Below are positions 10,561 to 34,070 of a stretch of DNA of 64,000 nucleotides, one piece after another; positions within the stretch are counted from its first letter, which is position 1, and each line of letters opens with the position of its first letter. Position numbers and translations under genes: made by a program. The DNA is from Pontiella agarivorans. GTDB taxonomy: Bacteria > Verrucomicrobiota > Kiritimatiellia > Kiritimatiellales > Pontiellaceae. Below the pieces are notes generated by a model, which was not told where the DNA came from, made no database searches, and saw only the letters and a program-made list of their open reading frames with translations. The stretch lies in the NCBI RefSeq assembly GCF_034531395.1, contig NZ_JARVCO010000010.1, forward strand, positions 806,001 through 870,000, given 5' to 3'.

Positions 10561-10604
10561 AAACTACCAGAGGCCTGCTACCCGTCTATGCATACTAAAG
10601 TATG
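10561..10604 (-). promoter_or_regulatory. Palindrome-linked promoter of the DUF5060 hydrolase
   Basis: Read on the minus strand: CATACTTTAGTATG (10604-10591), 24 bases, then TAGTTT (10566-10561) as -10. The octamer after the palindrome, CATAGACG, resembles TATAGACG at 30965. The predicted transcript starts near 10554, leaving a leader of about 150 bases. Confidence 0.55.
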
Positions 10605-10838
10605 TGTGGCGAGAAGATGTGGAAGAGAGGCGGTTTGTCGATGAGCTTCACGCTCATCGTGTCTCGTCCAGCCGAATGGCGGGATGCGTGCCATCGGTAA
10701 TCATTCTCTTCCTGTAAAAAAGTAACCCGGAAGTTTGTTGCGGGAGCTTCATTGCGGCGCTCTTCAGCTCGATATCGAACATTTTTATCAGGTAGAAATT
10801 ACACGGAGGTGTAGCGGCGGGGACCCATGTGCTCTGGA

Positions 10839-10882
10839 CATACTTTTGTATGGATTGGCTCGTTTTAGGGGTGTGATACTTT
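10839..10882 (+). promoter_or_regulatory. Palindrome-linked promoter of the TonB-like gene
   Basis: CATACTTTTGTATG at 10839-10852, 24 bases, then TACTTT at 10877-10882. The spacer begins GATTGGCT, giving a TTGGCT -35-like box 16 bases from the -10, the same as the copy at 12910. Confidence 0.65.
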
Positions 10883-10949
10883 GGTTAATACGGGGTGGGT
10901 TGATGGCCGTTCATGGCACAGGACGCTACTTTCAGAGGGGGTATAGATC

Positions 10950-12068
10950 ATGAAAAAAAGAAAGAGTCGCCGTTCCGGAAAGGGTATAATTAAGGGAGCT
11001 CCGAGCGGGTTTTTGATCAGTTTGCTGGTGCACGCGGGAGCCTTTATATTAGCGGGGCTTTTGGTTGTTTTTACCGCTACGCAGAAGCTGGATAAAAAAT
11101 TTATTGCGCCCAAGCCGGTAATGCGCCCCAAAATGAAGCTCAGGAAACCAAAGGTGAAGCTCAAGAAATCCGCCAAGCCCAAGGCGCCGACACGCATCGT
11201 TACCAAGGTTGAGAGTGCCAGTATGCCCGACATTCAACTGCCGGAAATGAACGGCATGGGCTTTGGGGGCGCATCCACGGGCATCGGCGGTTTTGATGTG
11301 CTGCCTGCATTGGAGGATATATCCATACTGGGCTCGAAGATAAGTACAGGAAACGATTTGGTCGGCGTCTATTATGATACTAAACGCAATCGGTCAGGTC
11401 AGAATATCAGAGCTAGTGTGGAAGAGTATCGGTACATCGCGCATCGTTTCATGAGGAGTGGATGGAGGCCGAGTATACTAAGTCGATATTACAAGAGTCC
11501 GCAAAAGCTCTACGCCAAAGCTATCGTTATTCCTGAAACCATGGCCACGGTTGCTCCGTCATCATTTGCCGATGAGGATGGTGTCGGAGCTTTCTGGCTG
11601 ATTCATTATAAAGGCGATCTTGTTCACAGGGACGGCATAAAATTTAGATTTTATGGAGCGGCCAACGAATTTATGATTGTGAGAGTAAATGAAAAAATTG
11701 TTCTCGGCTGTTGCTGGAACGATGCTCGCAGGAGCGAGGTCATTGGAAACCTCTGGGAATCGAGTTCGCTGGATACCGATACGTGGCATTGGGGACGGGG
11801 AAGTGTACAGATCGGCGATTGGATAACCCTTGAGCCAGGAGTTCCTCTGAGCATGGAGATTTTGTTGGGAGACAACGGCTGGAGTACCGGCTTTGTTTTG
11901 GGTGTTGAGGTCGAAGGCGAAGAGTACGAAAGGAGTAGGCAGGGTGCGCCCATTCTTCCTGCATTTAAAACGGACGAGCTGTCCCTCGACTATCTTGATG
12001 CGGTGTATCGGGAACAGCCTGAAGGTGAAGTCTGTTTAACCAACGGGCCGGTATTCCGCGATTACTAG
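10950..12068 (+). CDS. Membrane-anchored protein with TonB-like N-terminus
   Basis: 372 residues. A basic start (KKRKSRRSGK) precedes one membrane segment, GFLISLLVHAGAFILAGLLV (residues 20-39), of the kind that opens TonB-family energy-transducer proteins. A Lys/Pro-rich periplasmic linker follows (PKMKLRKPKVKLKKSAKPKA, about 55-75). From about residue 120 there is a globular domain; DGIKFRFYGAANEFMIVRVN resembles the core of PA14-type carbohydrate-binding domains. No TonB C-terminal domain is visible. It may be a cell-envelope anchor that senses or holds a glycan (inference). The next gene starts 20 bases downstream and is probably co-transcribed. Predicted promoter at 10839-10882; AGAGGGGG precedes the ATG by 11 bases. 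Confidence 0.6.
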   Translation: MKKRKSRRSGKGIIKGAPSGFLISLLVHAGAFILAGLLVVFTATQKLDKKFIAPKPVMRPKMKLRKPKVKLKKSAKPKAPTRIVTKVESASMPDIQLPEMNGMGFGGASTGIGGFDVLPALEDISILGSKISTGNDLVGVYYDTKRNRSGQNIRASVEEYRYIAHRFMRSGWRPSILSRYYKSPQKLYAKAIVIPETMATVAPSSFADEDGVGAFWLIHYKGDLVHRDGIKFRFYGAANEFMIVRVNEKIVLGCCWNDARRSEVIGNLWESSSLDTDTWHWGRGSVQIGDWITLEPGVPLSMEILLGDNGWSTGFVLGVEVEGEEYERSRQGAPILPAFKTDELSLDYLDAVYREQPEGEVCLTNGPVFRDY

Positions 12069-12087
12069 CTTTCAGAGGAGAGTGAAT

Positions 12088-12849
12088 ATGAAAATTCCCA
12101 GTGTTGTTGTGAGTATTATCCTGATTCTAATGATGGTCTTATCCAGTTCTGCTGTCTTCGCTGATGCGAGGGTTTGGACATTGCTGGATGATCGTTCGCT
12201 TGAAGCTTCGTTTATCACGACCATAGGAGCTGATTTTGTCCTGAAATCCGCGACTGGCAAACAGATCAAAATTCCTGCTTCTGAGTTTAGTGAGGAAGAT
12301 CGAACTTTTGTCGAACTATTAAGGCCGCCTGAGCTAAAAGTTGATTTCATCAATCAGCTGAAAACGGTCACATTTACTGAGGGTTGGTATGGCGAGTTTG
12401 GGCGGGAACCTGAAAAGCACGGGAATTTCGGTCTTCGAATCGTACAGACCAGCAGTGGATCATACCGTCATGAACTTAGCGCCGAATATTTCGTTATAGC
12501 CCGGCAGCTATACCGATCGGATCCAAAGTGTTTTCTGATCGATCGTGGCGAGGTTACTTTCACGCTAACCAAAAAAAATAAGAGGACGTTCGAATTCATG
12601 AGCGATAATCAGGTGCGATTGCAAAACTGGGAGTATCCAGGTAATGATTTTCTCATTCAGTTTGGCGAAATCTATTATGCATCAGTCGTTGTTATCAGGG
12701 ATAAACGAGGGGAGACCGTTAAGGTCGAAGCAAGTAAATCCTGGATGGCGGAAAATCTGGAGAATCTAAGTCAGCTTAAAATTGGTAATTATTTCGACAA
12801 GAAATGCGTTCGTTGTTTTCCCGCAAGACCAAAGCCATTGGTCTGGTAG
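12088..12849 (+). CDS. Secreted SHD1-like domain protein
   Basis: 253 residues from the ATG at 12088, chosen over an in-frame GTG at 12082 because AGAGGAG lies 7 bases upstream of it. A hydrophobic signal (VVVSIILILMMVLSSSAVFA, residues 6-25) is followed by a domain ARVWTLLDDRSLEASF...GKQIKIPASEFSEEDRTF that matches what I know of the SHD1 (SLA1 homology 1) domain common in Planctomycetes and Verrucomicrobia. The rest (about 75-253) is a beta-rich domain without a family I recognise. Its partner is probably the TonB-like protein encoded 20 bases upstream. Confidence 0.6.
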   Translation: MKIPSVVVSIILILMMVLSSSAVFADARVWTLLDDRSLEASFITTIGADFVLKSATGKQIKIPASEFSEEDRTFVELLRPPELKVDFINQLKTVTFTEGWYGEFGREPEKHGNFGLRIVQTSSGSYRHELSAEYFVIARQLYRSDPKCFLIDRGEVTFTLTKKNKRTFEFMSDNQVRLQNWEYPGNDFLIQFGEIYYASVVVIRDKRGETVKVEASKSWMAENLENLSQLKIGNYFDKKCVRCFPARPKPLVW

Positions 12850-12909
12850 CTCCGGACTTGAATCCATTTCCGGTTTATCCCGCAGCGACAGAGTGAAAAT
12901 GATGACCTC

Positions 12910-12953
12910 CATACTTATGTATGGGTTGGCTTGTTTGGGGGGTGTGCTACTTT
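12910..12953 (+). promoter_or_regulatory. Palindrome-linked promoter of the Asp-box protein
   Basis: CATACTTATGTATG at 12910-12923, 24 bases, then TACTTT at 12948-12953, with TTGGCT 16 bases before the -10. It is almost superimposable on the copy at 10839. Confidence 0.65.
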
Positions 12954-12980
12954 TTCATCTATAGAATAAGGATAATGGTT

Positions 12981-15900
12981 ATGATGAAGAGTACGTGCAC
13001 GCTACAAATAATGCTGTTGCTTGGGCTGGCATCGTTGGCCGGGGCGCAGCAAATGGATTTTACGCCGTTCTGGACAGAGCGGCAGGTTTCGACGGATCGT
13101 ATTGAATGGGAGCAGATCGGGCCTGGAAACTCTGGCCATGTGAATGGGCTTTGGTTTAATCGGTACAAAGCGGATACCGTCTTTGTTTCGCCGGATATGT
13201 TTGATTCATATCGTTCTCCGGATTTAGGGCTGTCGTGGAAAACTATCAAGGATTTTGATGGAACCGGGGGGGATAAAACCCGTTATTCCGGCGTTGAGTT
13301 TTCTGCGCTGGATCCGGACTGCGGCATTCTGATCGGGCGCAGGGATTTGAGTGTGACCTACGACGGCGGTGAAACCTGGTCCGATTTTTCTTCCGCTCCA
13401 TGGTACAGCTACGGAGCTTCCTATAATACGATTGTCTCGTGCGCGGCAATTGATCCGCAGACGACGAATGTCTGGTTTGTCGGTGCGGGGGGGCATCAGC
13501 GTCGGCAGCGGACCTTTGGAACGATGTCGGAAGTCTCTGAGGCCGATCCGCATGGGCTGAGAGATCCGTATTTAAGCGGGCGCATTTATAAGACCACGGA
13601 CAGTGGTCAGAGCTGGACCTATACGACCAACGGGATCAATCCGCTGGCGGAATTCTGCCGAATTGTGGTGCATCCTGCAGATTCGAATGTGGTTTTTGCG
13701 GCTTCGAACTACGGGTTTTATACATCCGTTGATGGAGGGGAGCATTGGACAGAATCGTCGACGGGGTTGGATAATGAGGTGATGATTGATTTTGATTATC
13801 ATTGGAATCCGTCCAACGCTCCGGGGGACCGGCTTACTTTTTATATCATTAATCAGGTGCGGTATCACTTGGTATCGACCAATGGCGGCCAGACCGTGAC
13901 CTCTTCCGGCGGGCTTTACCGGAGTTCGGATCTGGGGCAGAGCTGGCAAATTTGCAATGGAGCGCCGACGGGGCTTCATCAGGATTTGACCGCGCTGTCG
14001 GGTGCGACCAATGTGCGCAGCTTTTTTTATAAGGTCATGGCGAAATGGTTTGGAGCATTTGAGAATGCGAGTGCTGCAGAGGCTGCTTTAAAAGATAATC
14101 TGCCTACGGCTGTCCTGCCGTATATTAATGCGGTATGTATTGATCCAACGGATCGGACGCGGGTGTATGTCAGCCACTTAATCATGAATGATGTGAAATC
14201 ATTTCCTCCGGGGTTGGTCTGGCGGACAGAGGACAGCGGGGCGACCTGGCAAAGTGTGATGCGGATTGCTCCGGCCTATACGGGGGTGGACGAGGATTAT
14301 TGGATCGCGCGGGGAAATCCCACGGCTCCGAATATGGAGGTCAGCCATTCGGGGACGGGTGGATTTAATCAGAGTTATGCCAAGTATGCGCAGGGTGGCA
14401 TTCGCGGCATTGATGTGAACGCGCGGGGCGAGATCATGGCGCTGTGCGATCATGTGACGGTTTTGAGCACAAATCGAGGAACCAGCTGGACACAGGTGGA
14501 TGAAGATGAAACACCGGATGGAAACTGGGTCGGCCGCGGGGGGAGTAACATCGCCGGTCAGGATATTCTGCAGGATTATCGGCTCGGTCCTAATCGGGTT
14601 TATTTCGGGACAGGAGAGCATCGACTGTGGCAGCTACGGGATGATGGTTCAACGATTGGTCCGGGAAAGCAGTCGTTAAAACATTTTGAAAACGCAACGC
14701 CTACGGTTTCTGAAATCGGAATTCATCCCTGGGATCCGCAGACGATTTACGCATTGGCATCCCGTCAGTCGGGGGCCGGGGAGTTCAGGAAATCGGCGGA
14801 TGGCGGGTATACCTGGACGACCCTTGGTGCCCCTTTGGATTATGCGTATGCCGGAAATCCAAGTATGGCGCCGCGTACGATTATTGTGGATCCGATTGAT
14901 CCGAATTGGATCTATTTCGGGGTCCGGGCGAATTCCTATGATCCGACCGCGGTGGGGGTGTATCGCTCATCGGATGGCGGGGTGAATTGGGAGCAGGCAA
15001 ATCAGGGGTTTGATGATGAGGATGGGACTCCGGCGGTAACGGTTCTGCTGTTTGATCCAACGGATCCTGAGCGGAAAACGTTATGGGCAGGCGTTGAGTA
15101 CGGCGGTTCAGGCAAGTGTGTGTATCGTTCGGTTGATCGCGGAGAACATTGGGAAGCGGTTGCGACGATTCCGGAAGATATCGTGAGCATAAATGATGTC
15201 TATTTTGATTCATTCGGGCGGTTGTTTATCAGTGCAGGGAAGAACTGGGGGTACACGGAGGAAGGCGGCGTCTGGATGAGCGAAGATCTCGGGATGACGT
15301 GGCAACGCATTTTTGCCATGCCGTATACGCTTCGTATCGATGTTTCGCCGCACGATCCAAATCGAATGTTGGTAGTGGTTGGGGATGAGGCGCGTATTGG
15401 GCATTTGAACCCCGGGGTTTACTATTCCGAAGATAATGGCGTTTCCTGGGTGAAAGGGAATCGGGGCAATGGAAATCCCTCCAGGGTGTACAAGGCCGTT
15501 TTTGATCTGTTCGATCCGCAGTGTTTCTGGATGACCTGTAGTGCTAATGGCTTTGGGAGAGGGAGCGTTGATATGGGCTGGTCGGATCAGCCGGTGGCTC
15601 AAATTGGCGGAAATCGCGTGTATTGGGACCAGGATGAAATTCCAGGTGAAAATATTCATTTGAATGCTCATGGTTGTTTTGTGCCTGAGGGAAGAACGGC
15701 GACGTATGCCTGGTATGATGAGCAGGGTCAGCTACTTTCTACGGACGTGGAGCTGTCGATGCCATGGGCGGGGGGAGCCAGTGAGATTACGCTTGCGGTA
15801 ACGGATAGTATGGGGCAGGTGGCTGAAACTACGACCTCCATTCGAATTGGCGATCCTGCTCCTGTATCAGGGGGTGGCCCGATGGTCTTTTCTACAGATC

Positions 15901-16904
15901 AACCGGTGGGGGCCTATCGATTGTCTACTTTAGGGCTGGAAGAATTTGATCCCGCGAGTGCGAACCGTACATTTACCTCGATTCCCCTGTTGCGACGAGG
16001 CTCGGGAAAGAGTCGTTCCGGAGGACAGCTCTTTACTGCCCCGGTCGATTTTGAGCTGGGCAGTGTCGTGTGCCGGATGGGAGGTTCTTCGGAGGTCAAC
16101 ACGGATTCATTGAGAGCGAGTGGACTGAATTTAAGTGTGGTGGCGTATTCGAATGGTTCGCCGGATCACGTGGCTTATTCGGAAGATTTTCTATTTAGCT
16201 CAGCCAATACAAATGTGATTCAGGGGCATGAGTTTATTACGTTTAATCTAAGCAGCCCGCTTTCATTGGAGCAGGGCGCTCAATATGCGTTGGTTTTCTG
16301 GTATTCGGATGATCAAATTGATTTCATCAACAACTTCGGGCTGATGTGGTCGGATCGGGGCGCTGGACTTTATGCGGGGGGGCACAGTTTTGATTACCAG
16401 TGGAATGATTCTGCCACGCTGAACCCGGCAGTGGACTATCCTGTAACCTTCCCGCTGGATGGGGGAGCGAGTACGCGCGATCTGGCGTTCGGCTTAGTGG
16501 AGTATCAGCCGCCGTACAGTGGCTATACCGGATGGATCTATAGCTATAACTATTATGAGTCTACGGCCTTCGATTTGGCGGATCCGGATGGAGATGGGGT
16601 GCCGAATATGGTGGAGTATGCCTTGGGAGGGAATCCTTCGGATGCAGCGATTCAGGGAGAACCGCCGCATTTTGATGTGGAGGGAAGCGAGGCGATGCTG
16701 ACGCATGTGTTGCGGGAATCGGCTTCCGATGAGCTGGTTTACCAGTTGGAGCAGTCCTCAAACCTGCTGTCAAATGATTGGGAGCAGGCGGAGAGTCTTT
16801 GGTCGCAGTCGGAAGATTTCGGGCCGGACTTTATTATGGTCACCAATGCTTTTTCAACGGATGGGGAGAGTAAATATATCCGCTTGAAAATTAAGCGGAA
16901 ATAG
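12981..16904 (+). CDS. Large secreted Asp-box (BNR/sortilin-like) beta-propeller protein
   Basis: 1307 residues from the ATG at 12981; the open frame begins earlier but AAGGA sits 8 bases before this ATG and a signal peptide follows (CTLQIMLLLGLASLAGA). Residues about 30-890 carry many Asp-box repeats of the S-x-D-x-G-x-[ST]-W type (SSDLGQSW, TEDSGATW, SSDGGVNW, SVDRGEHW, SEDLGMTW), as in sialidases, GH74 xyloglucanases and VPS10/sortilin propellers. Then follow a short Ig-like domain (WYDEQGQLLS), a 'choice-of-anchor'-type domain (about 960-1180) shared with the DUF5060 hydrolase, and the DPDGDGVPN / EYALGGNPSD terminal module. The GH74 assignment is possible but no catalytic pair can be fixed by eye. 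Extracellular. Confidence 0.65.
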   Translation: MMKSTCTLQIMLLLGLASLAGAQQMDFTPFWTERQVSTDRIEWEQIGPGNSGHVNGLWFNRYKADTVFVSPDMFDSYRSPDLGLSWKTIKDFDGTGGDKTRYSGVEFSALDPDCGILIGRRDLSVTYDGGETWSDFSSAPWYSYGASYNTIVSCAAIDPQTTNVWFVGAGGHQRRQRTFGTMSEVSEADPHGLRDPYLSGRIYKTTDSGQSWTYTTNGINPLAEFCRIVVHPADSNVVFAASNYGFYTSVDGGEHWTESSTGLDNEVMIDFDYHWNPSNAPGDRLTFYIINQVRYHLVSTNGGQTVTSSGGLYRSSDLGQSWQICNGAPTGLHQDLTALSGATNVRSFFYKVMAKWFGAFENASAAEAALKDNLPTAVLPYINAVCIDPTDRTRVYVSHLIMNDVKSFPPGLVWRTEDSGATWQSVMRIAPAYTGVDEDYWIARGNPTAPNMEVSHSGTGGFNQSYAKYAQGGIRGIDVNARGEIMALCDHVTVLSTNRGTSWTQVDEDETPDGNWVGRGGSNIAGQDILQDYRLGPNRVYFGTGEHRLWQLRDDGSTIGPGKQSLKHFENATPTVSEIGIHPWDPQTIYALASRQSGAGEFRKSADGGYTWTTLGAPLDYAYAGNPSMAPRTIIVDPIDPNWIYFGVRANSYDPTAVGVYRSSDGGVNWEQANQGFDDEDGTPAVTVLLFDPTDPERKTLWAGVEYGGSGKCVYRSVDRGEHWEAVATIPEDIVSINDVYFDSFGRLFISAGKNWGYTEEGGVWMSEDLGMTWQRIFAMPYTLRIDVSPHDPNRMLVVVGDEARIGHLNPGVYYSEDNGVSWVKGNRGNGNPSRVYKAVFDLFDPQCFWMTCSANGFGRGSVDMGWSDQPVAQIGGNRVYWDQDEIPGENIHLNAHGCFVPEGRTATYAWYDEQGQLLSTDVELSMPWAGGASEITLAVTDSMGQVAETTTSIRIGDPAPVSGGGPMVFSTDQPVGAYRLSTLGLEEFDPASANRTFTSIPLLRRGSGKSRSGGQLFTAPVDFELGSVVCRMGGSSEVNTDSLRASGLNLSVVAYSNGSPDHVAYSEDFLFSSANTNVIQGHEFITFNLSSPLSLEQGAQYALVFWYSDDQIDFINNFGLMWSDRGAGLYAGGHSFDYQWNDSATLNPAVDYPVTFPLDGGASTRDLAFGLVEYQPPYSGYTGWIYSYNYYESTAFDLADPDGDGVPNMVEYALGGNPSDAAIQGEPPHFDVEGSEAMLTHVLRESASDELVYQLEQSSNLLSNDWEQAESLWSQSEDFGPDFIMVTNAFSTDGESKYIRLKIKRK

Positions 16905-16987
16905 CACGGTACGAAATGGTAACTCACGTCAGGGGCCTGCTTCGTATGCCTCGGGCGGACGTTTGCATCAGACCAATTTAAAATCCA

Positions 16988-17031
16988 CATACTTTTGTAT
17001 GGGTTGTGGCCGTATTTCCGACTGCTATTTT
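16988..17031 (+). promoter_or_regulatory. Palindrome-linked promoter of the fucosidase operon
   Basis: CATACTTTTGTATG at 16988-17001, 24 bases, then TATTTT at 17026-17031. It is the only promoter-like signal I see before the six-cistron unit running to 27467. Confidence 0.65.
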
Positions 17032-17108: not shown

Positions 17109-19229
17109 ATGAACCGTTTTTTATTCAAGCTGGCCATTTGTGGATGCGGTATTGCCATTGCGGGATCCGCTGAGGCCAAAATGGTAACTTCTCCCGATGG
17201 AAAGGTTTCTCTGGAGATTGCGAATGGGCCGTTTGATCCAACGCCGGAATCACTGAGTAAGATGGAGATTCCTGAATGGTTCAAAGATGCCAAGTTCGGG
17301 ATCTATGCGCATTGGAATCCGCAGAGCGTGGTGGAGAAGAACAACGGTTGGTATGCCCGGAATATGTATATAGAAGGGGACCCTGCTTATAAGACGCACC
17401 TTGAAAAATACGGTCACCCGTCAGAGTTCGGTTATAAAGATATTATTCCGCTGTTTACGGCCGAAAAATTTAACGGTGAGGAGTGGATTAAGCTCTGGAA
17501 ATCGGCGGGGGCAAAATACGCCATCGGATTGGCGACACATCATGATAATTTTGATATGTGGGATTCCAAATATAATCGTTGGAACTCGGTTAATATGGGG
17601 CCGAAAAAAGATATTATGGCGGCCCTGCGTGATGCTGCTGAAAAAGAAGGTATGGTCTTTGGGGTAACCACTCATCTGGAACGGACCTGGAGCTGGTTGC
17701 AGACCAATAAACGGGCAGACACTGAAGGGCCGAAAAAAGGGGTGCCCTACGATGGTAATAATCCGGATTATCAGGATTTTTATCTGCCGCCGGATCCGAA
17801 TGGTGATGACAACCGGCAGCATCCGAAAAATGCTCCCGTTGAATGGCGTATCAACTGGGCGAACCGGATGATTGATTTGATAGATCATTATGCTCCGGAA
17901 CATATGTATGTTGATGGAGCGATACCGTTTCGGGGTGACGACCAAGGCTTTACCGGGCTGGCTGTTATTGCGCATCACTATAATCGAAGCATTCAGCGGA
18001 ACGGTAAGTTAACGGGCGTATTCTGCGCAAAGAAACAGGCTCCTTCTCACGGATATTGGTGGGATGGAGTGGTGACGCAGGATTTTGAACGGGGGCGTGC
18101 CAATGAAATCCAAAAAGACTACTGGCAGACCGATACCTCGATCGGGAAGTGGTTCTGGAGCGGTGATAAACACCGCCCGGCCTCCGTGGTTATTCATGAG
18201 TTTATTGATATCGTTTCTAAAAACGGAAATGTCCTGCTGAATGTTCCGCCGCGTGGTGATGGATCTTTTGATGCAAATGCAGTTGCACTGCTGACCGAAA
18301 TGGGGGCCTGGCTGCAACGTGAGGGCGACGGAATCTACGGGACCCGTCACTGGCTGATCCATGGCGAAGGTCCAAATACTTTTGTTGGGGGCGGTTCGTT
18401 TCAGAAGGATATCACCTATACCTCGAAAGATGTTCGCTATACCCGCAGCAAGGATGGAAAAAATATTTATGCGCATATTCTGGGCTGGGATGAGGACGAA
18501 GATGAAATCTGTCTGCAGTCATTCGCGCCGGGTTATGCCGGGGGAGATATGAAGGTGAAGTCCGTTTCGCTTCTTTCAACCGGGGAAAATCTGACCTTTA
18601 GGAAAACTGCCCGGGGGTTGGAAATTACAAAACCTGTAGAGCAACCGGGACCCTATGCCTATGGGTTGAAAATAGAGACGGCAGATTATTCAAAAAAATA
18701 TGCTGAAACACCATATGATGCTTTCAGTAAACGCGTGGTTCAGCATGACGCGGATATTCCGCTTAAGGTATTTACTGCGCAGATTAAAGGTGAAGGTGCG
18801 CGTTTGCCGTGGATTCGTCGTCATGGTGGTGTATTGGATTCATGGAGTGATGAGCGGGCCTTTCTGGAGTGGGATGTTGTGGTGACGCAGTCCGGCGCAT
18901 ACGTTCCGGAACTGATTTATGAAGATTGTGAGGACTCAGCCCATGCCGTGCTGCAGTTTTCCCGAAAGAGTGTCGAGGGCGTCAGCGATGCCGTACTGGC
19001 CGGTGATGACAAGGGGTTGGATGAGGACGAGGGGTGGGACATTGTTACGGAAGTTCCCGTGGTCTTTAGTCCCGCGGAACCGGGGCAGTTGGTAACGGTG
19101 CTGATGGATCAGGCTGCGCTGCAGGTGACGGCCGGTACCTATCGTATTCGCCTGATTCCCGATCAGGAAAATGTATGGAAAGCGGTGGGTTTTAAGGAAT
19201 TGCACCTGAAGAATAACACGGATGTTTAG
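17109..19229 (+). CDS. GH29 alpha-L-fucosidase, secreted
   Basis: 706 residues. Signal peptide (FLFKLAICGCGIAIAGSAEA) then the GH29 barrel: EWFKDAKFGIYAHWNPQSV, the family start (W/F-x-x-AKFGIF-H-W-G/N); AGAKYAIGLATHHDNFDMWD, the conserved HHDGF-like stretch; and HMYVDGAIPF, where the Asp should be the catalytic nucleophile. VLLNVPPRGDG and the TEMGAWLQREGDGIYGTR stretch are also typical of GH29. About 250 C-terminal residues form a beta domain. It hydrolyses terminal alpha-L-fucose from oligosaccharides. First gene of the operon; the sulfatase start lies 13 bases after its stop. Confidence 0.88.
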   Translation: MNRFLFKLAICGCGIAIAGSAEAKMVTSPDGKVSLEIANGPFDPTPESLSKMEIPEWFKDAKFGIYAHWNPQSVVEKNNGWYARNMYIEGDPAYKTHLEKYGHPSEFGYKDIIPLFTAEKFNGEEWIKLWKSAGAKYAIGLATHHDNFDMWDSKYNRWNSVNMGPKKDIMAALRDAAEKEGMVFGVTTHLERTWSWLQTNKRADTEGPKKGVPYDGNNPDYQDFYLPPDPNGDDNRQHPKNAPVEWRINWANRMIDLIDHYAPEHMYVDGAIPFRGDDQGFTGLAVIAHHYNRSIQRNGKLTGVFCAKKQAPSHGYWWDGVVTQDFERGRANEIQKDYWQTDTSIGKWFWSGDKHRPASVVIHEFIDIVSKNGNVLLNVPPRGDGSFDANAVALLTEMGAWLQREGDGIYGTRHWLIHGEGPNTFVGGGSFQKDITYTSKDVRYTRSKDGKNIYAHILGWDEDEDEICLQSFAPGYAGGDMKVKSVSLLSTGENLTFRKTARGLEITKPVEQPGPYAYGLKIETADYSKKYAETPYDAFSKRVVQHDADIPLKVFTAQIKGEGARLPWIRRHGGVLDSWSDERAFLEWDVVVTQSGAYVPELIYEDCEDSAHAVLQFSRKSVEGVSDAVLAGDDKGLDEDEGWDIVTEVPVVFSPAEPGQLVTVLMDQAALQVTAGTYRIRLIPDQENVWKAVGFKELHLKNNTDV

Positions 19230-19242
19230 TCGGAGGATAATA

Positions 19243-20727: not shown

Positions 20728-20786
20728 ATATTTCCAGAGATTGGAAACCTGTTTTTATCATTCATTACTCAATAGGTATTTCTGTT

Positions 20787-23999: not shown

Positions 24000-24015
24000 A
24001 TCTGGAAGGGCTGTT

Positions 24016-25569
24016 ATGAAGAAGTTCGTTGTGTGCGGGATTGCCGCTTTTATGTTGCTGGGCGTTGCTGCGGCAAAGAAACCCAATATTATTTTTCTGA
24101 TTACGGATGATCAGAATCGTGAAACCCTGTCGTGTTACGGAGGCAATGCACTGACCCCGAACATTGATAAGCTGGCGGGTGAAGGCATCCGGTTTACACG
24201 GTTCACCACCTCGTCTCCGGTCTGTACGCCGACGCGCTACACCTGCCTTTCCGGTCGGTATGCCAGCCGGGCCAGAGGGCTGCAGAAAAATTGGAATGAA
24301 GGCGAGTCGATGTCCATTGAGTGGAACACCACGTTGGAACCGGACCTCGTTAATGTTCCGAAGGTGATGAAGGCCAACGGGTATAGAACCGGGATGGTCG
24401 GAAAGTGGCATGTCGGCGGTCTGAATGAGGCGGAAGTTAATAAACTGAAACCTGAATCCATCACAAAAAAATCCCGGTTGACTGATCCGGGCGTGCAGGA
24501 ATTTCTGGAACTGCGCCAGCGGATGCTCTGCGAAACCATGCGGAAATCTCATGGTTTCGATTATGTGTCACGGTTTTATCCGGGTAATGCGCAGCACCGT
24601 CATCTTCCGGAAGCGCTGGATGTTCATAATCTGGAATGGGTGATGGAAGGGGCTTTTGAATTTCTCGATGAGACGCCGGAAGACCAGCCGTTCTTTCTCT
24701 ATCTGGCCACAACAATTTCACATGCCCCGTATCCGGTTTTAGGGCAGGACGATAATCCATATATTTGTGAAGGCGGATTGCTGAAGACCCTTCCGAAGGC
24801 TGGAATGCCTTCGCGAAAAAGCGTATTTGAGCGGGTGAAGGAAGCGGGAACCGATCCGGATCTCGTATGGGCCACCTGGCTGGATGATGCGGTCGGTTCA
24901 CTGCGGAATAAACTGGAGGAGATGGGCGAGCTGGAAAATACGCTGATTATCTATTTCAGCGATCAGGAAGTGGCGGCCAAGGGATCGCTCTATTACAATG
25001 GCGTCGGCTCTCCGACGTTTATTACACAGGTTGGAAAAACGCCTCATGCCGTTTCGGATGCCAATCTGCAGAATGTGGATTTTGCGCCGACGATCTTTGA
25101 TTACTGCGGCATCACGCCGCCGGATGACATGCTTTTGGATGGTCGCAGTTTTATGCCGTTACTGAAGGGCGAAGAGCTGAAGAATTGGAAAAAAGTGCAG
25201 TATTGTGAAATCGGTTATTTCCGCAGTGTTATTACGGATCAGTTTCGATACATCAGTTTGCGTGTGCCCGAAAATCTGCCGGAAAAAGCGGAGCGGATGG
25301 GGGGCATCACCTGGGAGACAAAGGTGACCGAGGTGAATGGAAATCCGCTTAAGAATGTTCCGATGTATGAGCAGTGGCATCGTCGGCATAAAGAAGCCTG
25401 GACGGAAAACTGGTGGGATCAGGACCAGTTGTTCGATTCCCGCAATGATCCTCAGGAATCCAGAAATCTGGCGGATAGTCCGGAATATGCGGCACAGCTT
25501 GAAAAGATGAAATCTCTGCTGAGTGAAGAGCTGGAGCGTTTTCCGTTTTCTTACGGTGAATTTAAATGA
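24016..25569 (+). CDS. Secreted sulfatase (S1 family)
   Basis: 517 residues. Signal peptide (MKKFVVCGIAAFMLLGVAAA), metal-binding NIIFLITDDQ, and SSPVCTPTRYTCLSG with Cys70 as the formylglycine site; GMVGKWHVGG supplies the usual Lys/His pair and YFSDQEVAAKG lies where the second metal-site Asp is expected. It starts 16 bases after the GH86-GH28 gene with GGAAGGG before the ATG. It differs clearly from the sulfatase two genes upstream, so the operon probably removes sulfate from two positions. Confidence 0.87.
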   Translation: MKKFVVCGIAAFMLLGVAAAKKPNIIFLITDDQNRETLSCYGGNALTPNIDKLAGEGIRFTRFTTSSPVCTPTRYTCLSGRYASRARGLQKNWNEGESMSIEWNTTLEPDLVNVPKVMKANGYRTGMVGKWHVGGLNEAEVNKLKPESITKKSRLTDPGVQEFLELRQRMLCETMRKSHGFDYVSRFYPGNAQHRHLPEALDVHNLEWVMEGAFEFLDETPEDQPFFLYLATTISHAPYPVLGQDDNPYICEGGLLKTLPKAGMPSRKSVFERVKEAGTDPDLVWATWLDDAVGSLRNKLEEMGELENTLIIYFSDQEVAAKGSLYYNGVGSPTFITQVGKTPHAVSDANLQNVDFAPTIFDYCGITPPDDMLLDGRSFMPLLKGEELKNWKKVQYCEIGYFRSVITDQFRYISLRVPENLPEKAERMGGITWETKVTEVNGNPLKNVPMYEQWHRRHKEAWTENWWDQDQLFDSRNDPQESRNLADSPEYAAQLEKMKSLLSEELERFPFSYGEFK

Positions 25570-27467: not shown

Positions 27468-27498
27468 TTTATAACCTTTGGGGGGCGGAAAAGTGCCG

Positions 27499-27617: not shown

Positions 27618-27647
27618 TCATGCTGCTCTGTTTAGAGGAACTCCATT

Positions 27648-28283
27648 CTAGGGTGGATCTTTGACATCAACGATTCCGCGGTGCACGGCAAGAAGAGCGG
27701 CCTGAGTCCGGTCGGCCACACCGAGTTTTTTAATAATTTTTGAAACGTGCATCTTCACGGTTTGCTCTGCGAGGTTCAAGGCATCGGCCATCTCTTTGTT
27801 GCTATGTCCGGAAACCAGCAGGCGAAGAACATCGAATTCCCGTTCGGTGAGCTCGTCCTGTTCGCTTCTGGCGGCCAGCTTTTTCGCTATAGAGGCGGGA
27901 AAGTAAGAACCTCCGTTTGCCACTTCCCGGATCGACTCTAGAAAGGTTTCGATATCGCCGCTTTTAGGAATATAACCTTTGGCCCCGGCCTGAACGGCGT
28001 TCCAGATGATTTCATCTCCTTCATAGACAGAAAGAATAATTATCCGTGCATTCGGAAATTCAGCGAGGATGGATTTGGCGCATTCAACGCCGTTGCATTC
28101 GGGCATGCGGTAGTCAAGGGTGACGACATCCGGCTGCTGTTCCCGATATTTTTCCACGGCTTGGAATGCATTGATCGCTTCTCCGGCCAACTCCATGTCG
28201 TCGGTGCCGCTAATGGCATCTTTGAGACCGAGCCGCAGTAACGCGTTATCGTCAACAATCAGAACGGAAATGTTACGCTTCAT
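27648..28283 (-). CDS. NarL/FixJ-type response regulator
   Basis: 211 residues. Receiver domain with the acidic pair Asp11/Asp12 (VLIVDDN), phosphorylation site Asp57 (VVTLDYRMPE) and Lys107 (GYIPKSG). LuxR-type helix-turn-helix at about 141-205 (LTEREFDVLRLLVSGHSNKE, then EQTVKMHVSKIIKKLGV). It overlaps the histidine kinase by 4 bases (ATGA), so the two form a translationally coupled two-component system. By position among degradative genes it is a candidate activator of them (inference). Confidence 0.9.
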   Translation of the reverse strand: MKRNISVLIVDDNALLRLGLKDAISGTDDMELAGEAINAFQAVEKYREQQPDVVTLDYRMPECNGVECAKSILAEFPNARIIILSVYEGDEIIWNAVQAGAKGYIPKSGDIETFLESIREVANGGSYFPASIAKKLAARSEQDELTEREFDVLRLLVSGHSNKEMADALNLAEQTVKMHVSKIIKKLGVADRTQAALLAVHRGIVDVKDPP

Positions 28284-30379
28284 ACTTCTTTCCTTTTTAA
28301 TTTTTCAAGGGCTGGAATATTCAGCTCGACAGATGTTCCCTTACCGGGAGCACTTTGGATTTCAATGAAACCGCCGACATGGTTTGCCCGTTCGTGGAGT
28401 CCTTGAATTCCGAAGCGGGTGCTTGAGGTCAGAATGTTTGTATCGAACCCACAGCCGTCATCTGTGATTTTGACATTCAGATAATTCTGCTCAAAGAGCA
28501 TGGAAACGCTGATATGCTGTGGTGCACCGTGCCGTGCTGCATTGGTTATGGCCTCGCTGGTGATACGTAAAATATGTCGTTCTGCGGACAGGGTGAGTCT
28601 GCAGGGGGTTCCGGTACATGAAAAGGAGAGCTTTGCTCCGCATTCCTCGATGAGAGGGGCGATGGTTTTCCGAATGGCAGAGGGCAGGTCTGTTTTTTCG
28701 AGAATGCCGCCGCGAAGATCGTTGATGGTGGAGCGCGATTCTTCGCGGCAGTATTTGAGCATGCTTTCTGCCAGCTCCAGGGAATGGCGTCCTTTTTCAA
28801 TATTGGATTTGAGTTGCAGTTTGGAGTTGCCCAGCAGCATGCTTAATCCGGTAAGTGCCTGTTCCAGGGTGTCGTGCAGTTCCCGGGCAATGCGTTGACG
28901 TTCATTCAGAATGGATTCACGTTTGATCTGTGAGGTAATAGTTTGGGTTTGGGTGATCACCCGTTTGCGAAGAAGGGTGACCCAGATCTGATAGCCCAGA
29001 AGAAAAAAAAGTGCGGTTCCAAGTCCCCAGAACAGTCGTTTCGGAGTCCACCACGGTGCGGGTTTTAATACCGTTATATCTGCCATACTCCGGGGAGTGA
29101 GAGAAATCAGTGCGGGCTCGCGAAAAAAAAGTCGGTCGTGATTCCTGCTGAATTTGCAGATGCCGGTGATTCGGATGGTGGTTCCCGGAGAGAGCGCGTT
29201 TTTTATGACCTCGCCTTCAGGAAGCTGTACGTTGAAAAACCAGTCGTCTTTACGGCACAGAAGGGTTTCGTGCATGGAATCCGGTTTGTTTTCCGGTGGA
29301 TTACGCGGGGAAAGAGAGTTGGCCAGTCCGACCGTTACGGCATCCAGCTGCACCAGTTCGTTGTGAAGTCCGACAGGATAATAATAGGGTTTGGTTTCGA
29401 TACGTTTGGGTTCAGGAATCGCACCGTGACCGGTCCGTCGGACTTCATAGGCGCCAAACTCCGGGGCGATCAGGTTTGGCCGGATGTAGCCGGTAAGTTC
29501 AACTTCATCCCCGGGATATAATTCAATATCGGACATGGCTTTTGCTTTGAGAGTGGTGTGTTCGTTCCGGAGATAAATGGTGTCCTGAGTGGCATGGATC
29601 ACGGTGCCGAAGGTATGCAGAGGAATCTGACGGTTGGCGCCGTAGCGATAGATTTCCTGAAGCGGAATGAGTTGCTTTGAATGGTGTTTTTTTCCGGCTT
29701 TTTCTGGGTAAATGCTGGTGGCGGCGTGGGTGAATATGTAGCGGCCGAGCATTTGCCGGTGCGTATTGTAGAGGGTACCGGCCACGCCGTTGATGATCAC
29801 ATAATGAAACATGTGTTTCTTAACTCGCTCAAACATACCGGGATCATTAGGGAACAGTACGAGAATGGTTGAGTCATAAACATCCAGTTCGGCTACGACA
29901 TAATCAAGTTCCTCTTGAATATAGAGACCGGTCATCCATCCGCCGACTTTGAACCATTGGCAGTCGACAGAGGGGTCGTGAAGGTGTTTCCAGTTGAAAA
30001 CCAGTGGGTCAGGGAGGGCTTCTGTGGATAAAACTTCAATGGACTCGGCAGTAACTGTGGGGAGAAAGTTGCCTTTCCCTGTTTTTCCGATAATCCGGAT
30101 TTTGTTCGCAAAGCGCAGCCCTTCGATTTCTCCGGCATTTTTCGGGAGGGTAACGTATATTCCGTTTTCTCCGTCGAAGATAAACATTCCGGGCTTGCGG
30201 GGATGCAGGGAGGATACCAGACCGCAGATTTCGACCGGCAGTTCTTGAGCAGCTTTTTCGGGGGGTAGGTTCCGGATATCTCTAATAACGGTCATCGGTT
30301 CTGCAAAGACTTGCAGCACCAGAGCGGGGAGCATCATGCTTAATCTGAATAGCAGTCGAATACGCATTACGTTTTCCAT
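28280..30379 (-). CDS. Sensor histidine kinase (HisKA_3 / NarX-like), with large periplasmic sensor
   Basis: 699 residues. Signal-anchor at the N-terminus (LLFRLSMMLPALVLQVFA), about 420 residues outside the membrane made of beta-rich repeats reminiscent of OB-folds (EICGLVSSLHPRKPGMFIFD, GWMTGLYIQEE, FGTVIHATQDTIYLRNE, ITGICKFSRNHDRLFF), transmembrane segment at about 449-470 (LFWGLGTALFFLLGYQIWV), then the HisKA_3 box NERQRIARELHDTLEQAL with His502, N box EAITNAARHG and G box DDGCGF. The kinase partners the response regulator just downstream. What it senses is unknown. Two start codons are possible (30379 and 30367); GGAAAA favours the second. Confidence 0.88.
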   Translation of the reverse strand: MENVMRIRLLFRLSMMLPALVLQVFAEPMTVIRDIRNLPPEKAAQELPVEICGLVSSLHPRKPGMFIFDGENGIYVTLPKNAGEIEGLRFANKIRIIGKTGKGNFLPTVTAESIEVLSTEALPDPLVFNWKHLHDPSVDCQWFKVGGWMTGLYIQEELDYVVAELDVYDSTILVLFPNDPGMFERVKKHMFHYVIINGVAGTLYNTHRQMLGRYIFTHAATSIYPEKAGKKHHSKQLIPLQEIYRYGANRQIPLHTFGTVIHATQDTIYLRNEHTTLKAKAMSDIELYPGDEVELTGYIRPNLIAPEFGAYEVRRTGHGAIPEPKRIETKPYYYPVGLHNELVQLDAVTVGLANSLSPRNPPENKPDSMHETLLCRKDDWFFNVQLPEGEVIKNALSPGTTIRITGICKFSRNHDRLFFREPALISLTPRSMADITVLKPAPWWTPKRLFWGLGTALFFLLGYQIWVTLLRKRVITQTQTITSQIKRESILNERQRIARELHDTLEQALTGLSMLLGNSKLQLKSNIEKGRHSLELAESMLKYCREESRSTINDLRGGILEKTDLPSAIRKTIAPLIEECGAKLSFSCTGTPCRLTLSAERHILRITSEAITNAARHGAPQHISVSMLFEQNYLNVKITDDGCGFDTNILTSSTRFGIQGLHERANHVGGFIEIQSAPGKGTSVELNIPALEKLKRKEV

Positions 30380-30440
30380 AGTTCGGAAGTTAACCGCATG
30401 AAAGTATCACAGGATGCGGGGGTTTACCATGAGGTGTATG

Positions 30441-30485
30441 CATACTTTTGTATGTCTATGCGACTGAGAGCGGGCAGAGTATTTT
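30441..30485 (+). promoter_or_regulatory. Palindrome-linked promoter of the orphan receiver gene
   Basis: CATACTTTTGTATG at 30441-30454, 25 bases, then TATTTT at 30480-30485. Only 6 bases separate the -10 from the ATG at 30492, so a transcript starting at the usual distance would be leaderless. The palindrome lies in the space shared with the divergent histidine kinase gene. Confidence 0.6.
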
Positions 30486-30491
30486 TTCAAA

Positions 30492-30869
30492 ATGAAAAGG
30501 GAAATACGAGTAGTCATTGCCGGGGGAAACCGATTTCTGCGGGTGGGGTTAAGGGAGGCTGTTGAGCATGCGGTTGGTCTTAAGGTTGCCGGAGAGGTCT
30601 CCGGCGGTTCGGAAGAGCTCGATGATGTCGGAAGATTGAATCCGGATATTGTGTTGATGGAATACGGTATGTTCGAAAAAAACGGTATCGGTAATCAGAG
30701 TGCTCCGGTTCTCATATATTCTTTGGAGGCAAACGAGCTGGAGTCTGAGAAGGCCGTTGAGGGCGGAGCCTTTGGTTATATTCCCAGCCTTGAGAATGTT
30801 CAGCAGGTTGTTGAGTCGGTATTGGGAGCTGCACCCGCTGCGGAATTTATATCGGTGAAACAGGACTGA
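30492..30869 (+). CDS. Stand-alone degenerate receiver (pseudo-receiver) protein
   Basis: 125 residues, alignable from end to end with the receiver domain of the response regulator encoded at 27648: MKREIRVVIAGGNRFLRVGL against MKRNISVLIVDDNALLRLGL. The phosphorylation chemistry is lost: the acidic pair is Gly11-Gly12, the acceptor Asp57 is Glu (IVLMEYGM), and the conserved Lys is Ser (GYIPSLEN). No DNA-binding domain follows. Glu at the acceptor site can mimic phosphorylation. It may therefore bind or titrate the neighbouring kinase or regulator, or be a decaying duplicate. No Shine-Dalgarno sequence is seen; the promoter suggests a leaderless mRNA. Confidence 0.7.
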   Translation: MKREIRVVIAGGNRFLRVGLREAVEHAVGLKVAGEVSGGSEELDDVGRLNPDIVLMEYGMFEKNGIGNQSAPVLIYSLEANELESEKAVEGGAFGYIPSLENVQQVVESVLGAAPAAEFISVKQD

Positions 30870-30950
30870 AATGCTTTGTCCGGAACAACGCAGACTAAAA
30901 AAATAAAGTTTATTGTTTGTGTCGGGTCTTCAGCGGCATCGGCTTTAGAG

Positions 30951-30994
30951 CATACTTTTGTATGTATAGACGAATGCTGAAGCGGTGGTAGCTT
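30951..30994 (+). promoter_or_regulatory. Palindrome-linked promoter of the gene at 31062
   Basis: CATACTTTTGTATG at 30951-30964, 24 bases, then TAGCTT at 30989-30994. The octamer TATAGACG after the palindrome is nearly the same as that of the minus-strand copy at 10604. The -10 is poorer than in the other copies. Confidence 0.5.
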
Positions 30995-31061
30995 CAGAAA
31001 TGTTAACTGTCCCTTAAGTGTGTCAGCGAAGTGTCGACCTTGGGCAGTGAAAGAGAATGAA

Positions 31062-32960
31062 ATGAAAAAATCAGGAATGATATTGGCAGGATTATTGGTT
31101 GCATCTGCAGCACTGGCAGAGACAACCGTTTTTACCGAAGACTTTGACGGTTGGGCCAATGGCCGTCAGATTGACTGGGATGACAACTGGCATGCCTATA
31201 ATAACACCGGCAAAGGCAAGGCCACAAACGATGTGCTGGGGGTGCTGGCGCAGTATGGCGGTGCGGTACAGATCAGCAATTCCGTTGTGGTAGGCGTTGG
31301 AGAGAGCGTAAACGTTAAGCTCCAGTATCAACCGATGGTCGGGGATATTGAGTCCAGTACACTCGAGCTGTTCGGGTTTCTGCCCGAGCTGGAATATAAA
31401 GAGGGAACGGAACAGATAGACAACGGGGCAGGATCTGTTTCGGATGACATCTATTGGCTGGGGCCAATGTTTTCCCAGGCCGGGTATGATCCGGATGATT
31501 CCGGTGGCGGGTCCATTATTATGCGCAACAGTATTTTCATGCCGAACAATACGGCGAACCGGATCTATTCTCCCGCAGAGAATTTCGGGATCACCGGCAC
31601 AAATGATTTGATCGGGGATATCATGGATATTGAATTTACCCTGACCAAAACGACTGTGGAAGATGTCTGGTTTATGGACATGTCTTATTCCAATACTGTT
31701 AGCGGTGCGGCCGAATTCGGCTCCTATAGGATTACAGACTCCAATACCTATGATGCTGCGGAACTTTGGTTCGGATTTAATGCTTCAGGTGCGCTGGCTG
31801 CGGACCGAAAAGCGGATCATTTTATTGATAATATTGTGGTTACTCACATTCCGGCTCCGCCGACGCGGGTGATTATTGATGAGGATTTCAATCGGTTGAG
31901 CGGTTCCCTGAGTGCGGTGCCCGGCTGGATCGAAATGAAGAAAGACAGTGCGCTCATGGTTCAGGATGGCGTCGCTCAAAGTTATATCGGTCAGGGCATT
32001 GGCGGGCCGTATCGCGGCGTCAGTTATACGGCCAAGACGTTGAATGTTGCTACCGGCGAGACGGTTCGTATTGAGTTTGACTGGGCCGGCACCATCGAAG
32101 GGGATCTGAATCAGGTGTGGTGTGATGTGGTGATGACGACGAATGCCTACGATGACAATTCCAAAGTATGGTATTTCGACAGCTCCGACGCAATGGGCGT
32201 ACAGCTAAAGCAGACGACATTTAATGACACGGTCGCGTTGAATACGGCCGCATCCGGCGGGCTTGCAGTGGATATGGCCGACCTGGCGCTTGATCCGGTA
32301 AATCCCGGAAGCAGCGATGCCTGCCGCATTACATTCGAATATTTGAAGACCGAGACGAACGGGGTCTGGAATCTGGGCATCACGGTTTCAAACAGGATAA
32401 CGGGTATAGAGTATGCGAAGCGTGATCTGATTGTTGTGAATTCTAATACCTATGATGCTGACGAACTCTATTTCGGAATATCTAAGAATGCGGATGTTGC
32501 TTATGATGGCGGCAGTCCGTGGGGCTTTGAAATGGACAACCTGGTGGTTGAAATTGTACCCGTTCCCGGACCGGCCGGATTCGACGGCTGGTATGCACAT
32601 TATGAACTGACTGAAGGCGCGGACGGCGACGATGATGACGACGGTCTCTCCAATCTTTATGAATACGGGCTTGGCGGCGATCCGACGGATGATCGGGACC
32701 AGGGAAACTTGCCGAGCATGGTCTATGGTGGCGATGATACTGTTACGTATTATAATGTCATGCTCTCCGATCCGGACGCCGGCATTGAATACATTGTCGA
32801 ACAGACCACTGATCTGGAGAGCAACCCATGGACTGCGAGCGGCTGGAGCACGATCACCAACTATCCCTCCGCTGATCCAGACTTTGATCAGGCGGAACAC
32901 CGCATTTCCGGCGGAGATAAAGATCAGCTGTTCTTTCGCCTGCGCATTGTTCAGCCCTGA
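31062..32960 (+). CDS. Large secreted protein with two lectin-like domains and C-terminal surface module
   Basis: 632 residues from the ATG at 31062, where a signal peptide starts (MKKSGMILAGLLVASAALA); the frame is open 14 codons earlier. Two similar beta-sandwich-like halves follow, about 20-265 (TVFTEDFDGWANG ... FIDNIVVTHIP) and about 270-500 (VIIDEDFNRLSGS ... EMDNLVVEIVP); each ends in the D-N-[IL]-V-V pattern of concanavalin-A-like lectin domains. Then comes the shared C-terminal module (GADGDDDDDGLSNLYEYGLG, ending LFFRLRIVQP). No catalytic residues are apparent; it probably binds glycan at the cell surface. The palindrome promoter lies 70 bases upstream. Confidence 0.65.
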   Translation: MKKSGMILAGLLVASAALAETTVFTEDFDGWANGRQIDWDDNWHAYNNTGKGKATNDVLGVLAQYGGAVQISNSVVVGVGESVNVKLQYQPMVGDIESSTLELFGFLPELEYKEGTEQIDNGAGSVSDDIYWLGPMFSQAGYDPDDSGGGSIIMRNSIFMPNNTANRIYSPAENFGITGTNDLIGDIMDIEFTLTKTTVEDVWFMDMSYSNTVSGAAEFGSYRITDSNTYDAAELWFGFNASGALAADRKADHFIDNIVVTHIPAPPTRVIIDEDFNRLSGSLSAVPGWIEMKKDSALMVQDGVAQSYIGQGIGGPYRGVSYTAKTLNVATGETVRIEFDWAGTIEGDLNQVWCDVVMTTNAYDDNSKVWYFDSSDAMGVQLKQTTFNDTVALNTAASGGLAVDMADLALDPVNPGSSDACRITFEYLKTETNGVWNLGITVSNRITGIEYAKRDLIVVNSNTYDADELYFGISKNADVAYDGGSPWGFEMDNLVVEIVPVPGPAGFDGWYAHYELTEGADGDDDDDGLSNLYEYGLGGDPTDDRDQGNLPSMVYGGDDTVTYYNVMLSDPDAGIEYIVEQTTDLESNPWTASGWSTITNYPSADPDFDQAEHRISGGDKDQLFFRLRIVQP

Positions 32961-33043
32961 TGCTGTAATAATGGCGGGGGATTCTGTGTCGGGAAATCAT
33001 TTTCCCGGCTGATTAAGAAGCCAAAGAAATAAAGGAGAGTAGT

Positions 33044-33844
33044 ATGGACATAATGAAAAATATCGGGGTTGTTGCTCTGGTACTGTTGGCGGCGATGTCT
33101 GCCGGTGCGGGGGTGATTTATTCTACAGACTTTGATGCGACTGATTTCTCCAACGGGTCGTTGAATGGTCAGGATGGCTGGTGGTCTAATAACAATGGTG
33201 CTCAGGTGGATGCCGGAAATTCTTTAGTGACCCTTCCGAATACTTATGCGCGGGGAACGCAGGGCACCGGATTTTCGTTGGGGGTCAACGACAGTGTAAC
33301 GCTGACGGTGACGTATGATATTGCTAATGTTTTGGTGGCTCAAGGTCAGGATTTCCTTGCTCTGGGTCTGGCAACAGGAGCAGAGAATACGATTGGGGTA
33401 GTTAAGACCCGTGGTGAGGCCAAGGGGACTACTGCTGCAGGGTATTCACAGCAGTGGAGAGCTCCCAGCGATGTTACTTCTGCGGCCACTTCTGTGGTGC
33501 TGGGTCAGACTGCGTTAGGGCTTGATATGCCCGCCGACGATGACATGGTTCCGATTACGGTAGTCTGGACAGCCACGAAGACGGGGACGGCGGATACCTT
33601 CGATATTAATCTCGAAGCGTTTGACGGGACTACCAGTCTTGGGTCACAAACCGCAACCATCGTAGACAATGCTGCGTATACTGCGGGTACCCTTTATGCT
33701 GGTTACCAGCAGTCGGTTAACGGTGATCCGGGATCCGTTCAGCTGCTCAGCTGGGAAACTGCCGTGATTCCTGAACCGGCAACCTTAGGCCTTGTTGCAA
33801 TGGCCGGCGTTGGAATCATCAGTCTCCGTCGCATCATCATGTAG
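33044..33844 (+). CDS. PEP-CTERM exported protein
   Basis: 266 residues. Signal peptide (IGVVALVLLAAMSAGAG), a lectin-like beta domain that begins IYSTDFDATDFSNGSL and so resembles the halves of the preceding protein, and a C-terminal sorting signal: VIPEPATLGLVAMAGVGIIS followed by LRRIIM. In known systems the PEP motif is cut by an exosortase and the protein is released or anchored with exopolysaccharide. Good ribosome-binding site (AAAGGAGAG). A terminator follows 65 bases after the stop. Confidence 0.85.
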   Translation: MDIMKNIGVVALVLLAAMSAGAGVIYSTDFDATDFSNGSLNGQDGWWSNNNGAQVDAGNSLVTLPNTYARGTQGTGFSLGVNDSVTLTVTYDIANVLVAQGQDFLALGLATGAENTIGVVKTRGEAKGTTAAGYSQQWRAPSDVTSAATSVVLGQTALGLDMPADDDMVPITVVWTATKTGTADTFDINLEAFDGTTSLGSQTATIVDNAAYTAGTLYAGYQQSVNGDPGSVQLLSWETAVIPEPATLGLVAMAGVGIISLRRIIM

Positions 33845-33908
33845 TTTAATATACGAATTTCATCTCATCAACTCCTCGGCATTGCGTTGTGAAACGAAGT
33901 GCTTAGGG

Positions 33909-33936
33909 ACCTCCGTCTTAGGACGGGGGTTTTTTT
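33909..33936 (+). terminator. Rho-independent terminator
   Basis: ACCTCCGTC-TTAG-GACGGGGGT followed by six T; ends the transcript of the PEP-CTERM gene. Confidence 0.88.
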
Positions 33937-34025
33937 ATGTACAAAGGGAATCATGAGGCACAATTCGAAGGAAGATGGATAAGGTCATAAGTCGATATTC
34001 TGTAAATTTTAAAAAGTCAAAATGA

Positions 34026-34070
34026 CATACTTTCGTATACATATTCGATGCCTGCAGTTCATGCTATTCT
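34026..34070 (+). promoter_or_regulatory. Palindrome-linked promoter of the sulfatase-LacI unit
   Basis: CATACTTTCGTATA at 34026-34039, 25 bases, then TATTCT at 34065-34070. One base of the palindrome deviates (final A). The leader to the ATG at 34101 would be about 25 bases. Confidence 0.55.

Follow-up and report, generated by a model that had tools for sequence, protein, structure and literature searches.

Genes and Promoters of the Locus

The palindrome CATAC-N4-GTAT(G/A) and the promoters that carry it were analysed in a 64,000-nucleotide stretch of the Pontiella agarivorans NLcol2 genome (the window), which corresponds to positions 806001–870000 of contig C10 (G000:C10:806001-870000); C10 coordinates are given for sites beyond the window. 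The genome comprised 4,436,865 bp in 12 contigs, and its N50 contig was published as 1,265,434 bp (PMC10880615). The genome paper describes the organism as an anaerobic member of the Kiritimatiellota for which agar and a carrageenan support growth, and counts 165 sulfatase genes; it also mentions that kinases and response regulators are encoded in their vicinity and, in the sections consulted, describes no binding site (PMC10880615). The palindrome and its promoter architecture defined a regulon that was restricted to a single block of 54 kb, in which sulfatase genes lie together with algal-galactan/fucosyl-glycan genes, and there is very little doubt that this regulon is real.

The seven palindromes of the window were all found where the preliminary description had placed them, and each was followed by a TA-type −10-like box after 24 bases (n = 5) or 25 bases (n = 2), exactly as claimed there. 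Promoter 1 (10561–10604, minus strand) contained the palindrome CATACTTTAGTATG (10591–10604), the weak −35 TAGACG (10583–10588) and, after 24 bases, TGG and TAGTTT (10561–10566). It preceded a minus-strand gene (6227–10405) for a 1392-residue DUF5060/collagen-binding-2/PKD protein with a signal peptide-like N-terminus. The other six promoters were on the plus strand, as were their target genes. Promoter 2 (10839–10882) contained the palindrome at 10839–10852, TTGGCT and, after 24 bases, TGA and TACTTT (10877–10882), and its targets (10950–12849) encoded a TonB-like protein (10950–12068) and a 255-residue protein (12082–12849). In promoter 3 (12910–12953), the palindrome CATACTTATGTATG (12910–12923) was followed by TTGGCT and, after 24 bases, by TGC and TACTTT (12948–12953). 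The target was a Sortilin/BNR Asp-box protein gene (12975–16904), for which the real start is placed at about 12975–12984 because the open reading frame start at 12921 overlaps the palindrome.

Promoter 4 (16988–17031; palindrome 16988–17001, TTGTGG, and TGC with TATTTT after 24 bases, the box at 17026–17031) preceded an operon (17109–25569) that encoded an alpha-L-fucosidase family enzyme, a sulfatase, a porphyranase-type/GH28-like fusion and a second sulfatase. The fusion, a 1098-residue protein (20703–23999), combined porphyranase domains (Porphyrn_cat_1, BPA_C) with a C-terminal GH28/rhamnogalacturonidase-like domain. Promoter 5 (30441–30485; palindrome 30441–30454, TATGCG, and TATTTT at 30480–30485 after 25 bases) had no extended −10, and its target was a stand-alone degenerate receiver (30492–30869). 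The first gene behind promoter 6 (30951–30994; palindrome 30951–30964, TAGACG, and TGG with TAGCTT after 24 bases, the box at 30989–30994) started at about 31062, and the target region (31062–33844) encoded two proteins with signal peptide-like N-termini and no Pfam match. Promoter 7 (34026–34070) contained the palindrome CATACTTTCGTATA (34026–34039), TATTCG and, after 25 bases, TGC and TATTCT (34065–34070); it preceded a sulfatase gene (34101–35501) and a gene for a LacI-family regulator (35505–36614), which together span 34101–36614.

The same architecture was found upstream of the window at C10:785767 (minus strand) and at C10:786039, 788920 and 803566 (plus strand), and a weaker form of it, probably a further promoter, was located at C10:791580 (plus strand) ahead of a sulfatase gene. 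Sulfatases, an MGH1-like glycosidase, an alpha-L-fucosidase-family enzyme and a GH2 enzyme were among the products encoded behind the upstream promoters. The last site ended at window position 34039, and sulfatase and GH43 genes ran on to about 56 kb. An orphan palindrome, AATACTTTCGTATG (6091–6104, no strand assigned), had no −10 box on either side and is probably not a promoter. These promoters beyond the window and the orphan palindrome had been missed in the preliminary description, as had the extended −10 and the invariant −35 base described below.

Restriction of the Palindrome to One Block

Genome-wide counts were obtained by pattern searches with reversed-pattern controls. The form CATACTNNNGTATG occurred at seven places in the genome, all within 33 kb (C10:803566-836964), and its reversed control occurred at none. 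The shorter pattern ATACN4GTAT was found at 35 places, as compared with 12 for its reversed control in the whole genome, and 12 of the 35 fell in C10:785767-840039, a 54-kb interval that makes up 1.2% of the genome (binomial P about 7e-15 for an interval chosen post hoc). Eight of the 35 places lay in the 64-kb window (binomial P 3e-8). When up to three mismatches to CATACTTTTGTATG were allowed, 16 matches were obtained in the window versus 4.6 ± 2.3 in shuffled sequences, for which the maximum was 12.

The −10 box was confined in the same way. A TAnnnT box at 24 or 25 bases was present at 8 of the 12 cluster palindromes and at none of the remaining 23 (Fisher P 2e-5, with a regular expression that was partly post hoc), and individual reading of these 23 places on both strands revealed no TAnnnT at either distance. 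The check set out in the preliminary description, on whether the motif is as common inside genes, did not refute the regulon: the palindromes outside the cluster had no promoter. Since at least ten promoters share the palindrome and the fixed spacing, and this combination occurs nowhere else in the genome, the block is probably switched on together.

Matches in other genomes were also evaluated, and the class-wide comparison covered 346 genomes of the class, namely the genome itself and 345 others. Two palindromes in genome G084 were rejected as unrelated because they lay in a prophage with integrase and tail-collar genes and belonged to a longer AGCATAC...GTATGCT dyad. The prophage (L043/L044, G084:C2:180001-220000) carries AGCATACTTTWGTATGCT dyads, which are probably phage operators. 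A palindrome in G108 was likewise set aside, as it was a single site with no −10 at 24 bases. An 18-base composite gave 11 single matches in the wider genome-contig collection; these were from unrelated phyla, none was clustered, and their number was about that expected by chance, which was estimated at 7–8.

Two other kinds of repeat were also present. The string TTCCAANNNTTGGAA occurred 334 times in the P. agarivorans genome (for example at C10:790077) versus once for the reversed control, and 0–1339 times in related Kiritimatiellae (control 0–3; examples at G048:C1:22199-22307 and G057:C41:21272-21475), in genes as well as in intergenic sequence. Trains of the string at a spacing of 31/32 bases, about three helical turns, were present in some genomes. 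The string TTCCAATGATTGGAA was not found in the literature searched. Dense short direct repeats of ATACG/CGTAT with a 2-base gap, in nine copies, were present in L131/L132 (G022:C2, about 2203001-2243000) and apparently represent a 7-base tandem repeat.

Promoter Architecture

The anatomy of the promoters was derived from an alignment of 11 promoters. CATAC and GTAT were invariant, and the four bases of the dyad centre were variable (TTTT, TTTA, TTAT, TTTC, GATC, CATC and GTTC). Column 17 was an invariant T, the first base of a −35 box (e.g., TTGGCT, TAGACG, TTGTCG and TATGCG) that resembled TTGACA weakly. The TG of an extended −10 was found at columns 36–37 in 9 of the 11 promoters; in promoter 34026 it was shifted by one base, and promoter 30441 had no TG. 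These elements were combined into a 14-base composite, CATACN4GTATN3TN18TGNTA, which matched exactly in nine rows, representing eight places, and with a single mismatch in one further row, all in C10:785741-836990. No further match was found in the genome at 0–1 mismatches. In the rest of the class (345 genomes), one exact match was obtained, in a single genome. In nine sister Pontiella species there was no exact copy, and at up to two mismatches there was no enrichment over the control. One palindrome (C10:803540-803605; L008, about 17540-17605) fitted the full composite on both strands, which makes a divergent promoter possible, and no gene evidently faced the palindrome on the minus strand.

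With the −10 placed at −12 to −7, the palindrome would span about −50 to −37 and its centre would lie at about −43.5, which is the position of a class II activator site. As in class II promoters, the site was at a fixed distance and next to a weak −35. The preliminary description had proposed a candidate regulon and had taken the fixed distance and direction to point to an activator. This reading is consistent with the class II position, the weak −35, the extended −10, the restriction to one cluster and the near-absence of the composite from the 345 other genomes. As far as can be judged from sequence, activation is likely.

Candidate Regulator

Within the block or next to it, three regulators were encoded, namely a HisKA_3 kinase/NarL-type regulator pair, an extracytoplasmic function (ECF) sigma factor (C10:798618, shortly before the window) and the LacI-family protein. 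The ECF factor, which is of the Rhodopirellula/Verrucomicrobium type, lies mid-block and is followed by a protein with FecR and Laminin_G_3 domains (L008:12618-14713, C10:798618-800713). The NarL-type response regulator (27648–28283, minus strand) had an intact receiver with the acidic pair D11/D12, the acceptor D57, S85 and K107, and an intact GerE helix-turn-helix (residues 144–199) with the recognition helix EQTVKMHVSKIIKKL. VraR, DevR and NarL were the nearest solved structures. The membrane histidine kinase (28280–30379, minus strand), whose gene overlaps that of the regulator (28280/28283), had a HisKA_3 domain with H502, a HATPase_c domain and one predicted transmembrane segment after a large N-terminal domain. 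A search with the kinase protein across the wider genome-contig collection retrieved no relative.

The preliminary description had named the regulator at 27648 as a candidate reader of the palindrome. The gene position and the site geometry of its family agree with this: the N4 spacing of CATAC-N4-GTAT at the 11–12 places falls within the range of N2 to N4 known for NarL-type regulators. In ComA, the inverted repeat is TTGCGG-N4-CCGCAA, for which a spacer of n = 4 is optimal (PMC4797271), and the promoter-proximal DevR site overlaps the −35 (PMC3029386). The recognition helix, TVKMHVSK, was unlike that of nearly all of about 30 paralogs. To our knowledge, CATAC is not among the half-sites of the NarL-type family. 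Site 30441 is located where the kinase gene and the degenerate-receiver gene diverge, and on the opposite strand an extended −10, TGATACTTT, faces the kinase gene at a distance of 34 bases, i.e., 24 bases plus about one helical turn. It may be conjectured that the kinase operon is autoregulated via this site.

Three observations weigh against this assignment. The kinase operon has no site of its own at 24–25 bases. Although related kinase/regulator pairs form a family in the genus Pontiella and accompany its gene clusters, de novo palindrome and dyad scans of the 23 other loci sampled (24 kinase loci in all) revealed no recurring N4 dyad with a −10 at 24–25 bases, and the leading matches were GC-rich or tandem repeats; the family therefore offers no independent precedent for the link between operator and regulator. 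Furthermore, the sole regulator with a similar helix (TTKMHVSR; G014, L167) belongs to a genome without matching composite promoters, although that genome was 85% complete and the contig of L167 was 3.7 kb long. The sequence GATACATGAGTATC, which is situated where a paralogous kinase gene begins (C10:335818), was rejected as a possible sister operator because the start codon falls within it and its conservation in G025 is limited to the coding part. The link between the palindrome and the regulator is thus drawn from position and family geometry, on which the local response regulator appears to be the best candidate reader, with considerable room for doubt.

The stand-alone receiver at 30492–30869 is NarL-like and has no DNA-binding domain. 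Its D11D12 pair is replaced by GG, D57 by E57 and the lysine by leucine, and the predicted transcript start of promoter 5 lies at or beside the ATG at 30492, which would make the transcript leaderless. Among the 24 kinase loci, such a receiver was present only here. A speculative and rather improbable extension is that every polysaccharide block of Pontiella is served by a private kinase/NarL-type pair, whose recognition helix and operator are specific to that pair. In the present block, an autoregulated degenerate receiver under the control of the same operator as the regulon would then pair with the receiver domain of the regulator and tune it as a phosphomimetic co-regulator.

Alternative Explanations

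The reader may be encoded elsewhere in the genome, e.g., as another AraC, GntR, Crp or NarL-type protein. The regulator need not be local, and the genome is rich in NarL-type regulators (73 first-look candidates). However, sites of a distant global regulator should also be present outside the block, and their confinement to it suggests a dedicated local regulator; a reader encoded elsewhere is therefore considered unlikely.

A slightly less credible alternative is that the LacI-family protein (35505–36614) uses the palindrome as its operator and controls the block, including its own gene, as an activator or a repressor. This protein is encoded within the regulon, since its operon follows one of the sites. 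LacI proteins recognise dyads, and the sugar cluster in which they are encoded is often under their control. Their operators are normally dyads with a central CpG that is read by the hinge helix, whereas the centres TTTT, TTTA, TTAT, GATC, CATC, GTTC and TTTC contain none. Moreover, the site lies entirely upstream of the −35, a position more suited to an activator than to a repressor, the LacI gene sits just beyond the last site, and the helix-turn-helix of the protein has relatives of 48–52% in species without the motif. The LacI-family protein thus fits worse than the response regulator.

The shared architecture might also reflect descent only, with promoter cassettes copied within the block and no present regulatory function. 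Some promoters are clearly related: the spacers of promoters 10839 and 12910, which look copied, agree at 19 of 24 bases, and each agrees with that of 786039 at 16. However, most promoter pairs agree at only 3–13 of 24 spacer bases and the genes behind them are unrelated, so descent alone cannot account for the invariant ATAC/GTAT dyad and spacing, and this explanation is very improbable. The ECF sigma factor lies inside the block with a FecR/lectin-type partner, but it fits worst, and recognition of the palindrome as its −35 is equally improbable. The −35 and −10 of ECF promoters are about 16–17 bases apart, whereas 24 bases separate the palindrome from the −10; this −10 resembles that of sigma-70 and carries the extended TG, and a perfect dyad would be unexpected for a sigma factor.

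Proposed Mechanism and Comparison With Known Systems

A locus-specific class II activator, most likely the local response regulator, was the best explanation as a whole, with an estimated probability of about 0.6. In this mechanism, CATAC-N4-GTAT(G/A) would be the dyad operator of a single activator that controls 10–12 promoters across the 54-kb block. The dimer, bound at about −50 to −37 just upstream of the weak −35 and the extended −10 (TGnTAnnTT), would recruit RNA polymerase. The NarL/LiaR/DevR-type regulator (27648–28283) would be phosphorylated by the membrane kinase (28280–30379) when the kinase senses a breakdown product.

In the literature searched, no regulator-operator pair was described for sulfatase-rich polysaccharide loci of Kiritimatiellota, and we know of almost no promoter data for this phylum. 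A promoter anatomy, comprising the extended −10, the weak −35 and a predicted activator site at −43.5, is thus gained for Kiritimatiellota. Moreover, the 14-base composite delimits one regulon sharply enough for direct testing of the regulator and the sugar signal.

The receiver and GerE regulator with a HisKA_3 kinase resembles DevR/DosR, ComA and LiaR/VraR. As for NarL/LuxR-type regulons, the dyad centre has four bases as in ComA, and the promoter-proximal site is at or overlaps the −35 as in DevR; unlike in these regulons, each promoter has a single site, the regulon is confined to one 54-kb block and the reader is a candidate. LuxR and CRP, as examples of class II activators, sit at −41.5/−42.5. 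The dyad described here likewise keeps a fixed distance and immediately precedes the −35, but its centre is near −43.5, it has a 4-base dyad centre and it is accompanied by an extended −10. In Bacteroidota, polysaccharide utilisation loci are controlled by their own sensors, hybrid two-component systems (HTCS) and SusR. The present locus is similar in having a local sensor inside a block of carbohydrate-active enzyme and sulfatase genes, which it plausibly switches on, and differs in belonging to Kiritimatiellota, in having a separate HisKA_3 kinase and NarL-type regulator instead of a hybrid sensor, and in that no SusCD pair was seen. The system is ordinary in kind and unusually clean in definition.

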